Positions 23,787-32,451 of a DNA stretch of 60,654 nt are shown here, one piece after another. The stretch covers positions 1-60,654 of the forward strand of contig JAGBJO010000016.1 in assembly GCA_017934425.1 (NCBI GenBank), in the 5' to 3' direction. A program made the translations under genes and the position numbers. Numbering within the stretch: position 1 is the first letter of the stretch; each line of letters begins with the position of its first letter. The stretch comes from Ruminococcus sp. (GTDB lineage Bacteria; Bacillota; Clostridia; Oscillospirales; Ruminococcaceae). The notes under the pieces are model-generated. The model was given only the letters and a program-made list of their open reading frames with translations, made no database searches and was not told the DNA's origin.

Positions 23787-24950
23787 TTATTTCTTCAGCT
23801 TCTGCTGAGCTTTAGCTACCTTTTTTCTGTCCTTTGCCTGTTTTTTCAGATCATCAAGGCTCATTTCACTTGATGCTGACTCACCGGCAATGCCCTCTGC
23901 GCCTGTAGGTGCAGGAGCGCCATCGTCGTCAAGATATGTTGAAAGTCGCTTTTTGAACGCACCGCCAGCTGAACCGGAGGTGAGTACTACGCTGCCTGCG
24001 CTGACAGAGTTGATCGGCACAGATCTTGAGGTCTGCATATAAGCAGAACCATGAGTTCCCTGGTTATAGGGATTTGCCTGGGGGAAGCCCTGCTGCTGAT
24101 AAACAGAAGCGTGTCCGCCGGCGGCGTTATAAGGATTTGCCTGGGGATAGCCCTGCTGAGGATAACCCTGCTGGGGATAGCCCTGCTGAGGATAGCCCTG
24201 CTGGGGGTAACCCTGCTGAGGATAACCCTGCTGGGGGTAACCCTGCTGGGGATAACCCTGCTGAGGATAGCCATGCTGGGGATAACCCTGCTGTGGGAAA
24301 CCCTGCTGAGGATAACCGCCGCCCATAGGGGGATTATCATTAGGCTGCTCATAGAGGAAACGAGGATCAGCGCCCTTATTCTGGGCTGCCTGAGCATTCT
24401 CCGGTGAAGGAGCAGCGTAGAAGGGATTGCTTTCATCAACGTCGAAGCCGTTTGAGAACTCAGCTGCTGAGCCAAGAGTATTAACAGGAGGCTGTGCAGC
24501 AGGCTGCTGAGCAGGAGTTTCATCAGCGGAATCAAAGTCGTAGCCCTTCATGAAATCCTCGGCAGCGTTGGGGATAAGGCTTGCAGCAGTCTGAGTCTCC
24601 TCAGGGGAGAGTACAACCTGGCAAGCGCCATTCTCAACCTTACCGGAAACCAGGAGGCTGAGAGCTTCCTCGGAAGGCTGTGCAAAAGCGAATTCATCGA
24701 AGTAAACAACGATAAGCTGTTTAGCAACTGCGCCGGCAGTTAATACAGACATAGCTGCGATCTTTTCAGCTGCAAGAGGTGAAGGAGTACCGTTGTTGAT
24801 AGATGTGCTTGTCACGCCTGAGAAGATGTCGCCGTTATCGGCAACGATCAGGCAGAGGCAGGCATCTTCGGCTGTAGCGTAATAGGGCTCAGCCTCTTTA
24901 ATAAGGTTGGCGAAATTTTTGGCAGTATCATATAATGCACCGATTTCCAT
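23787..24950 (-). CDS. Signalling-cluster protein with deaminase-like N-terminus and GYPQQ repeats
   Basis: A 387-residue protein, not firmly recognised. Residues 1-130 recall the cytidine-deaminase fold ([33 protein letters not shown]), but the CAE and PCxxC zinc ligands are mostly missing, so it would be a pseudoenzyme if the likeness is real. Residues about 205-285 hold some 13 copies of a GYPQQ-type repeat, followed by a proline/glycine-rich stretch and a basic coiled C-terminus ([19 protein letters not shown]). I chose the ATG at 24950; an alternative TTG at 24983 would overlap the PP2C stop codon (TTGA). It is the last gene of the kinase operon. Confidence 0.7.
24120..24325 (-). repeat. 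GYPQQ tandem codon repeat
   Basis: About thirteen 15-bp units encoding GYPQQ or close variants ([10 protein letters not shown]). Such repeats form flexible, sticky segments and can vary in number by slippage. Confidence 0.9.
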
Positions 24951-24979
24951 ACAAAGCCACACTACCTTTCTGAATTGAT

Positions 24980-25891
24980 TCAATCATTTGTGTTGCGCCT
25001 GAGCATAGCTGCCTTTCTTTCAGCAGCCTGCTTTTTATTATCCTCAATAGCCTTGGTGATAAGCTCAGTGTTTGCTGCGAGAAGTTCTTCATTGAACACG
25101 CAGGAAAGGGAAATATCGTCTTCTGTACCAAAATGTGAGCGCTTTGTAAGGTTGTTGATAACAACGTTCTTGAAGCTCTCCAGATTGGTAAGCTGACCTG
25201 TGATTATCGTATGGTAATCGAGGAAATCATACTCACTTCCAAAGGAAGTGTACAATCCGTCAGTAGAAGCAAACAGCGCGATCAGCTTTTTTCCGGAAGT
25301 GAAAAAACTGCTGAACATTCCTGCTGCATTTGAGTTACACATAGATGCGGTGACATTAGCAGGTGCAGCCTCATTATACTCCATGGGCATAACAGCCTTG
25401 CCGTCGTCAAAAATAGCTACCAGCGTACCGTCACCGATTTGCACGCCGAAGGTAAAGTCCTTGCTTGTGACTGCTGCGATAAGAGTTGTACCATAGTAGG
25501 ACTCTGGAGGGATAGCCTCAAATTCCTCATCGGTAAATTTACTCTTTTCCTCTGCGGTAACGGGGTTAGCTTTAAGGTGATCGAACACCTTCATATTCCA
25601 GTTGGAAATTATCTGCTTTTCCATATTGCGCAGGATCATTTTATTGTATTTAGGCAGAGCATCTTCAAAAGCCTCTGCGTCCTCATAAAATCTGTCTACC
25701 GCCTCGATCGTGGCTTCTACGGCGAATTTTGAGCCCAGGTTACTGCGGAAATGCTTCTTACTGCCGTGGCCGTCTGCAACGACTGCTACAGCATAGCGTT
25801 CGCACACCTTATAGGACGAACTGTCCTGGCAGGGCAGTTTACTCACCTCATGACTTGCGCCTTTGACCGAGTGGCTGAAACCATTGAACAT
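24980..25891 (-). CDS. PP2C-family Ser/Thr protein phosphatase
   Basis: A 303-residue metal-dependent phosphatase. Metal-binding and catalytic motifs are present: CQDSS (residues 21-25), VADGHGS at 38-44, [30 protein letters not shown] near 214, and GTEDDISLS near 258. It should remove phosphate groups placed by the kinase two genes upstream. GGAGG 11 nt before the ATG. Spacing to the vWA gene is 42 nt. The kinase-vWA-PP2C order is the triad seen in Ter-type stress loci. Confidence 0.9.
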
Positions 25892-31224: not shown

Positions 31225-31251
31225 ATACTTAACTAACTCCTATGGGATTTA

Positions 31252-32451
31252 TTATTTCTTTTTCTTCAGTGCTTCTGCCTGGGCAGCCAGTGCAGCCAGG
31301 TCTACTTTACCCTTTTTAGGCTGCTGACCCTGTTCATCTTTTCCAGCCGGTTTGCCGTGCTGATTATGCTGATCCTTGCTGGGCTGCTGAGCCTGTTTCT
31401 GGGGCTGCTGAGCAGGTTTCTGAGAGGCAGATTTCTGGTCATCGGCAGGCTTTTTAGGTTCTTCCTTTTTATCTTCAGGCTGCTGTGCGGGTTTTTCAGC
31501 GCTTTTTTCCTGAGCCGGTGCAGCTGGCTTTGACTTAGTGAGTGAAGCCGCCATCTGCTGGAGTTTCTCCAGGCTGCTCTTACGCTTCTGTCTCTGCTCA
31601 TCTTCTTCAGCAGCCAGAGCGGAAGGAGCGTCCTCAGGATAATCCGGGAATACCATTTCAGGGTTTCTGAAACGAGGGGTATTGCCTTCAGTAAGCTTCT
31701 TAGTAGTTTGAGTAAGGAGCATCTGAGCGTCAGCAAGCTGAGCCATTCCGGACTCACCGAAGTCGATGAGAGCATCCCAGATAGAATTGATCCTTGCTGT
31801 CATGCCCTTAACATCGTCGAGCATAATAGAGCGGAGGTTTTCGGTAGAGACTTCCATAGCGCTTGCATCGTTCATAGCGTCAGCCACGATCTCAGCAGCT
31901 TTTTTCTCAGCATCATTGATGATCCTGAGTGCTTCGCCGTTAGCATACTCTATAGATTTATCGGCAGCCTTCTTGGAATTATCTTCCATTTCGGCTGCTT
32001 TCTGCTTAGCCATTTCAATAAGCATATCTGAGGATTTCTTAGCCTCGATGAAAACTGCACTGAGGGCTTTAGCTTCGTCGTCAGCGGTAAGGGCAGCAAG
32101 TTTGGTATCAGCTTCTATGATCTGATCGTTAAGGGCTGTGATCTCGCTGTCGAGTGAACTGATCTTCTCTTTCAGTCGCTTGTTCTCCTCCTCAGCCGCT
32201 TTCAGTTTTGTAGCGAGGGTGTCATTGCTGACCTGTACTTCGGTAAGACGTTTCTGAGTATCTTCAAGGATCTTAGCCTGAGTCTCATCAGCATCTTCCC
32301 CCTGTCTGATCCCTTCCAGCTGCATTTTAGCGGTGCGGAGCTGCTGTCTGAGGGTAAAGACCTGTGAATCCAGACCTTCGAGCCGTCTGATGACATCAGC
32401 CTTGTCATAGCCGCCGAAAGCAACTGATTTTATGAACCTTGCTTCAGCCAT
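31252..32451 (-). CDS. DivIVA-like coiled-coil protein with Gln/Pro/Lys-rich tail
   Basis: A 399-residue protein. The start FIKSVAFGGYDKADVIRRLE resembles the membrane-binding N-terminus of DivIVA/GpsB proteins (FGGYD..V...L). Residues about 25-215 are predicted coiled coil with heptads rich in Lys, Glu and Ala. Residues about 290-385 are low-complexity Gln/Pro/Lys (SQKPAQQPQKQAQQPSKDQ), ending in a Lys run. Such proteins scaffold complexes at poles or septa. It is the first gene of the upstream transcription unit and may place the signalling proteins in the cell; this is inference. AAGGAGG precedes the ATG. A true DivIVA gene is at 49807-50382. Confidence 0.75.
   Translation of the reverse strand: MAEARFIKSVAFGGYDKADVIRRLEGLDSQVFTLRQQLRTAKMQLEGIRQGEDADETQAKILEDTQKRLTEVQVSNDTLATKLKAAEEENKRLKEKISSLDSEITALNDQIIEADTKLAALTADDEAKALSAVFIEAKKSSDMLIEMAKQKAAEMEDNSKKAADKSIEYANGEALRIINDAEKKAAEIVADAMNDASAMEVSTENLRSIMLDDVKGMTARINSIWDALIDFGESGMAQLADAQMLLTQTTKKLTEGNTPRFRNPEMVFPDYPEDAPSALAAEEDEQRQKRKSSLEKLQQMAASLTKSKPAAPAQEKSAEKPAQQPEDKKEEPKKPADDQKSASQKPAQQPQKQAQQPSKDQHNQHGKPAGKDEQGQQPKKGKVDLAALAAQAEALKKKK

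Follow-up and report, generated by a model that had tools for sequence, protein, structure and literature searches.

Several kinds of described system come closest to the gene cluster reported here. The TerY-P triad is defined as a TerY-like vWA protein with a metal ion-dependent adhesion site (MIDAS), a PP2C phosphatase and a kinase fused C-terminally to a zinc ribbon (PMC11090510). Sensory [FeFe]-hydrogenases of groups C and D have lost C299; a hydroxyl residue at the M353 site is conserved in group D, and TamHydS carries Leu at the M497 site, which is poorly conserved in both groups (PMC8163306). For HydS of Ruminococcus albus, action through an adjacent Ser/Thr kinase has been proposed (Zheng 2014, cited in PMC5707799), and a gene cluster including a putative sensory hydrogenase was strongly down-regulated in R. 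albus co-culture (PMC6776011). Here we describe the domain content, conserved residues, linkage, promoter conservation and ancestry of a gene cluster in a 60,654-nucleotide stretch of Ruminococcus sp. (assembly GCA_017934425.1, ~54% complete; contig JAGBJO010000016.1), called the window. The cluster joins a TerY-type triad to a hydrogenase-like protein, and we tentatively read it as a cytoplasmic, H2- or redox-responsive Ser/Thr signalling system. HYD, KIN, DIV, LRR, GYPQQ, up189 and flk177 are working gene names (Table 1); L numbers denote fetched loci and G numbers the genomes compared.

Conserved features of HYD and the triad

In Pfam, HYD matched Fe_hyd_lg_C (9.9e-24), Fer4 sites and the C-terminal FeS domain PF04060, and its best PDB matches were [FeFe]-hydrogenases. 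Its alignment has 62 rows: the window copy and those of the 61 fetched loci, among which are four paralogues of 50-55% identity. An earlier note, made from the sequence alone, had described a hydrogenase-like protein with all four H-cluster cysteine positions; this is borne out throughout the alignment, in which eight Fer4 cysteines and an extra C168 are also invariant. Three further sites were placed via alignment to the PDB matches. The proton-relay position holds Pro (40), Gln (20), His (1) or Ser (1) and never Cys; the M353 site holds Ser (45), Thr (16) or Asn (1), that is, a hydroxyl residue in 61 of 62; and the M497 site holds Leu in all rows except one with Ile. HYD shows the group D combination of a C-terminal Cx2Cx4Cx16C motif (shared with group C), a hydroxyl at M353 and no Cys299. 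A PAS domain after the C-terminal cluster, as in group C HydS, was not detected in HYD by Pfam. The window contains no other PF02906 protein, and the sole other one in the assembly lies on contig 32, the window itself being contig 7. HydF exceeded its cut-off in 97 of 100 genus genomes, including the window's own. HYD is probably a sensory-type protein, likely responding to H2 or redox state.

The defining features of the TerY-P triad (vWA MIDAS, PP2C partner and C-terminal kinase zinc ribbon) are all present, and by a criterion of our own the canonical kinase catalytic residues are incomplete. Among 71 KIN sequences, the Lys and each of the four zinc-ribbon cysteines are retained in every one and the catalytic Asp in 65. 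In L126 the catalytic Asp is lost too, giving an apparent pseudokinase, and no LRR was found at that locus. The domains and motifs agree with the earlier description of a TerY-type triad with no ter gene in view. No TerD was found in the 54% complete assembly that contains the window, and TerC was not searched for. TerD occurs in 36 of 100 genus genomes, and 37 of the 61 genomes having both HYD and the triad gave no match to it. Among seven paralogous vWA loci that were fetched, TerD flanks the triad in two (L134, L135); no TerD match came from the genomes that carry the remaining five (G035, G072, G076, G038, G028). The triad is, on sequence grounds, a TerY-P-like module independent of TerD. 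A Ter association of the HYD-linked triad was considered and rejected, as no ter gene is nearby and TerD stands beside just two of the seven paralogous triads.

The remaining proteins were characterised with less certainty. DIV had been described as a DivIVA-like scaffold; the coiled coil and an N-terminal motif stand, and the DivIVA identity is unconfirmed. Its match to the DivIVA Pfam profile (E 0.0031, 17.9 bits) falls below the cut-off of 28, and no DivIVA or GpsB chain occurs among the best 60 of 167 and the best 60 of 139 PDB profile matches. DivIVA homology through PDB profiles was thus not retained, the matches listed being generic coiled coils alone. Because the DivIVA label is weak, the suggested pole localisation is weaker as well. 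In LRR, the double zinc ribbon matched Pfam below the cut-off (0.0018). The N-terminal 135 residues of GYPQQ are deaminase-like: PF00383 exceeded its cut-off in all six zinc-intact orthologues tested and did not match the window or L050 copies, and the family profile found just two PDB matches at E <= 1, cytidine and blasticidin-S deaminase, both in register and weak (0.036 and 0.17). Among 51 relatives, the zinc site C-x-E...PCxxC survives in 12, none of which shares its locus with HYD; the 32 copies linked to HYD (window included) have lost it without exception, as have seven more. This pattern may be a matter of phylogeny rather than function. A 15-base repeat unit in GYPQQ extends over 11.8 copies (24141-24317). 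For its start codon, ATG at 24950 is more likely than TTG at 24983; in several orthologues the open reading frame (ORF) offers no start codon ahead of the corresponding Met.

Linkage, promoters and accompanying genes

ORFs and a promoter scan confirmed the earlier layout of seven genes on the minus strand, arranged as two units each headed by a promoter. The first consists of DIV and HYD and the second of LRR, KIN, vWA, PP2C and GYPQQ (29240-23787). The conserved neighbourhood is wider, at ~22939-33300. Across 90 genus genomes, HYD and vWA orthologues occur together in 61, HYD alone in 2, vWA alone in 9 and neither in 18 (thresholds: at least 50% identity and >630 bits for HYD, >290 bits for vWA). 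The co-occurrence has a Fisher p of 1.8e-10, uncorrected for phylogeny and with many assemblies incomplete. The two genomes with HYD alone are G046, where it lies on a 6.8-kb contig, and G062, which is 68% complete. Additionally, G059 is HYD-positive solely on account of two paralogues (51-54%) that lack DIV; G051, scored negative, has a 97-residue HYD fragment.

Of 69 near-full-length HYD places, 61 were fetched, leaving out the window's own, the second copy of G082, and the places in G062, G056, G003, G004, G027 and G016. L124 was not HYD and was dropped from the counts (tandem 19, alignment 62 rows). KIN lies in the HYD locus in 44 of the 61, in tandem in 19 and divergently in 25. The 17 loci without a full KIN include L042, cut by the contig end inside KIN, four paralogues (L090, L091, L093, L094) and three that end at contig edges (L056, L064, L128). 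DIV adjoins HYD in 57 of 61 loci (the L130 copy is contig-cut), and the four without DIV are paralogues. The conserved-neighbourhood check suggested by the earlier note, which placed the hydrogenase-like and DivIVA-like genes next to the triad, thus upheld the linkage in most loci and qualified it in eight or nine, where the units stand apart. Among R. flavefaciens strains, YAD2003 and ATCC 19208 are divergent, MC2020 is tandem, and FD-1 has up189-DIV-HYD at a contig end.

The region holds 28 promoter-like sites, compared with 16.2 in shuffles. Sites of at least 11/12 consensus are frequent ahead of up189, DIV and LRR orthologues (Table 1; these upstream sequences are related, not independent) and rare upstream of KIN (5/74) and HYD (4/67); letter-shuffled upstream sequences reach this score in 0.2-1.5%. 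HYD and KIN are generally without a promoter of their own. For up189, neither the window copy nor one orthologue had a Pfam match above cut-off.

Table 1. Features of the cluster, with positions in the window
Feature	Position	Strand	Evidence
Promoter TTGACA-17-TAGAAT ahead of up189	33352..33380	(-)	11/12 consensus; at least 11/12 in 33/37 orthologues
up189, conserved protein directly upstream of DIV	32731..33300	(-)	in 48/61 HYD loci
Promoter TTGACT-17-TATAAT ahead of DIV	32581..32609	(-)	11/12 consensus; at least 11/12 in 48/53 orthologues
DIV, coiled-coil protein with N-terminal FIKxVxFGGYDKxDV motif	31252..32451	(-)	ORF, alignment
HYD, sensory [FeFe]-hydrogenase-like: two 4Fe-4S sites, H domain, C-terminal Cx2Cx4Cx16C cluster, helical tail	29512..31224	(-)	Pfam, PDB profile matches, alignment
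H-cluster cysteines C141, C189, C297, C301 of HYD	30322..30804	(-)	kept in 62/62
C-terminal FeS motif C393-x2-C396-x4-C401-x16-C418 of HYD	29971..30048	(-)	61-62/62; PF04060
Promoter TTGACA-17-TATAAT, TG before -10, ahead of LRR	29355..29383	(-)	12/12; at least 11/12 in 46/61 orthologues
LRR, N-terminal zinc-ribbon-like segment and BspA-type leucine-rich repeats	28212..29240	(-)	LRR_5 3.1e-46; ribbon cysteines 64-66/69
KIN, TerY-P-type kinase fold, C-terminal zinc ribbon, Mg-binding Asn to Gly	26806..28149	(-)	Pkinase 6.8e-11 (residues 135-235 only)
vWA, TerY-like, intact MIDAS (DxSxS, T, D)	25934..26761	(-)	VWA 1.4e-10; MIDAS letters 68-69/69
PP2C with metal-binding aspartate motifs	24980..25891	(-)	PP2C_2 1.4e-32; DG, DG, DD motifs 67/67
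GYPQQ, degenerate cytidine-deaminase-like domain, then Pro/Gln-rich repeats	23787..24950	(-)	profile and repeat analysis
Cytidine-deaminase-like domain of GYPQQ, zinc ligands lost, Glu kept	24546..24950	(-)	orthologue Pfam matches
flk177, small protein with hydrophobic segments, conserved downstream	22939..23472	(-)	31 loci including the window

In relatives, further genes accompany the cluster. In all 25 divergent loci, the gap between the two units contains a gene of cluster c9, for a binding lipoprotein, and one of cluster c5, for a membrane protein with GGDEF; Pfam identified the L045 copies as Peripla_BP_4 and GGDEF, respectively. Among the 19 tandem loci, c5 members occur in 10 and c9 members in 5, cluster c5 being mixed. 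The membrane protein is probably not a cyclase, judging by eye from the inspected copies, in which the motif is TGNEF or TSNEF. The window's genome has the lipoprotein and GGDEF pair on another contig. Furthermore, another subclade has a second GGDEF protein between PP2C and GYPQQ (Pfam for L102), and in L050, L059, L066 and L074 a GGDEF-EAL-type protein adjoins HYD (Pfam for L050 only).

Elsewhere in the window, a 736-residue regulator (33831-36041) has a LacI-type binding domain and an AraC helix-turn-helix, with a middle part that resembles a degenerate GGDEF by eye. The idea that this regulator occupies the gap between the divergent units was wrong; the lipoprotein and GGDEF genes are located there. 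An ORF at 20758-21378 (-) matching Phage_Mu_F (6.1e-8) and a minor head protein lies near tRNA-Gln (21512-21587) and is a possible prophage remnant. A tandem array at 1199-3318 has a 408-base unit in 5.2 copies with 93% matches, and short 7-base tandem repeats (TAATGCG, AATTACG and ATTACGC units) recur at 36032-36063, 36192-36242 and 60024-60055.

Ancestry, proposed mechanism and alternatives

Among 391 genomes of the class, 19 (the window's own included) match HYD at E <= 1e-40 and 372 do not, giving 23 places outside the window's own genome. We fetched 20 regions with 21 of those places (G500 and G151 left out) and one spirochaete locus. Ten of the relatives from this survey, typed via Pfam, comprise nine MCPsignal proteins and one histidine kinase. 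Four relatives from the same order or genus comprise a methyl-accepting chemotaxis protein (MCP; L095), a PAS-histidine kinase-receiver protein (L096) and two GGDEF-EAL proteins (L098, L099). No KIN, vWA or DIV relatives were found by blastp in 21 HYD-relative loci, some of them <10 kb. In a tree of 61 chosen sequences, the 22 ruminococcal HYD rows form a clade at 100/100, and its grouping with two MCP fusions likewise has 100/100. The 49-row HYD family is separated at 100/99 from the HydS-like and HydA2 rows; the program issued a long-branch warning. CheW was found in none of 100 genus genomes and MCPsignal in five at E <= 0.001, over its cut-off in one; both searches were positive in 7 of 14 control genomes. 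Because HYD branches among the fusions, and from this genome content, we infer that the HYD lineage lost a chemotaxis output. Ruminococcal HYD has a plain helical tail beside a coiled-coil gene, whereas its relatives outside the genus have output domains fused to them. Three same-genus paralogues (L098, L099 and L100) have a HYD-like module followed by GGDEF-EAL (L098 and L099 by Pfam) and are candidate direct sensors from H2 or redox state to cyclic di-GMP.

In the signalling system that we tentatively propose, H2 or electrons would change the state of the H-cluster and 4Fe-4S clusters of HYD, and this change would pass to the helical tail. The tail and its coiled-coil partner DIV would then present the signal to a KIN-vWA-PP2C switch, with LRR and GYPQQ acting as adaptors. 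The regulated step may be dephosphorylation, or PP2C control scaffolded by the kinase, instead of kinase activity, because KIN has lost the Mg-binding Asn while the PP2C motifs are intact. In many relatives, the binding lipoprotein and GGDEF membrane protein would add an extracellular input. Ligand, signal flow, contacts and output in this scheme are predictions from sequence. The scheme is favoured by the invariant cluster cysteines and missing proton-relay Cys of HYD, the signalling fusions among its relatives, HydF in nearly all genus genomes, and the co-occurrence, linkage and conserved promoters of the two units. It is also possible, if doubtful, that in a genus devoid of chemotaxis machinery a chemoreceptor-type H2 sensor shed its signalling tip and was rewired to a Ser/Thr phospho-switch via a coiled-coil scaffold, with the deaminase-like pseudoenzyme as a further component.

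Several observations weigh against the signalling proposal. The Mg-binding Asn position of KIN (aligned to LRRK2) is Gly in 69 of 71 sequences, the Asn being retained in five of five paralogous kinases of the genus, and KIN may be weak or inactive. Homology between the HYD tail and MCP tails is not demonstrable (hhalign probability 31%, 35 columns), and the C-terminal cluster of a group D enzyme is described as unresponsive to H2 (PMC13104023). The triad occurs in nine genomes that lack a full HYD. The HYD unit stands without the triad in eight or nine loci (L078, L079, L081, L083-L086 and L133 clearly; L049 with less certainty, given an upstream flank of just 5.5 kb), and in G039 a single contig carries the two units ~258 kb apart. 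These separations and the nine genomes lacking a full HYD, together with a conserved promoter for each unit, would fit two co-located systems working uncoupled, up189-DIV-HYD (with the lipoprotein and GGDEF protein) and LRR-KIN-vWA-PP2C-GYPQQ. We regard this explanation as conceivable and on the whole doubtful, given that the linkage survives rearrangement between tandem and divergent layouts and that HYD lacks a vWA orthologue in just 2 of 63 genomes.

A role in growth or envelope control resembling StkP-PP2C with DivIVA/GpsB, in which DIV would localise the switch and HYD would be a redox checkpoint or a structural Fe-S scaffold, is unlikely. The FGGYDKxDV motif, the sub-threshold DivIVA match and a reported Ser/Thr kinase-DivIVA link in pneumococcus would favour it; however, neither DivIVA nor GpsB is among the best PDB matches listed for DIV, and no recognised division gene occurs among the eleven commonest neighbour clusters. 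Far less probable is anti-phage defence of the kind served by TerY-P modules in CoCoNuT and by stand-alone kinase systems. TerY-P does accompany restriction systems (PMC11090510), and KIN weakly matches the PD-T4-6 and mad6 models, but these matches mostly span ~50 kinase residues, the other six proteins have no defence match stronger than E 0.0027, the same eleven clusters include no recognised nuclease or restriction gene, and the neighbourhood is stable through the genus. The model search yielded weak kinase matches alone, and the defence role was rejected as a candidate. A metabolic role for HYD, as a hydrogenase or electron-transfer enzyme under the control of the rest of the cluster, is similarly improbable: the complete set of H-cluster cysteines and the HydF of the genome would allow this, yet the proton-relay substitutions, the single PF02906 protein in the window and the signalling fusions among its relatives argue against it.

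Comparison with known systems

No published description of the full gene combination was found among the titles and abstracts listed by searches of an open-access library. H2 sensing by fermenting rumen bacteria, on which depends whether they form acetate plus H2 or other products, is linked to methane emission and is not settled. If the doubtful reading of a rewired chemoreceptor holds, fibre-degrading rumen bacteria would have a new way of coupling H2 to protein phosphorylation. The sensor-to-phosphorylation hypothesis is testable because named R. flavefaciens strains carry the cluster. In addition, the cluster places a TerY-type triad in surroundings other than those of ter or restriction genes.

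With the TerY-P triad, the cluster shares the vWA, PP2C and kinase proteins, the MIDAS, the PP2C motifs and the C-terminal zinc ribbon. It differs in having no ter gene nearby, in the change of the catalytic-loop Asn to Gly, and in being joined to LRR, deaminase-like and hydrogenase-like proteins. HYD resembles the group C and D sensory [FeFe]-hydrogenases (TmHydS, TamHydS and R. albus HydS) in its two N-terminal 4Fe-4S sites, H domain, Cx2Cx4Cx16C cluster and lost proton-relay Cys, group D in particular at the M353 site and TamHydS at the M497 site. Unlike them, it has no PAS domain and no second hydrogenase in the window. Three proteins of the same genus that we label HydS-like are 22-25% identical to HYD, stand apart in the tree and have GPC as their L2 motif. 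Clostridial proteins in which an H domain is fused to an MCP, histidine kinase or GGDEF-EAL output share the N-terminal module with HYD at 28-42% identity, the closest two in the tree being MCP fusions; their output domain lies on the same chain, unlike that of HYD, and their loci gave no KIN, vWA or DIV relatives. The proposed pairing of R. albus HydS with an adjacent Ser/Thr kinase embodies the same idea, a hydrogenase-like sensor leading to Ser/Thr phosphorylation, with a different hydrogenase family and different partners here. The novelty of this cluster lies in a hydrogenase-like protein of another family, a TerY-type switch and a split architecture.

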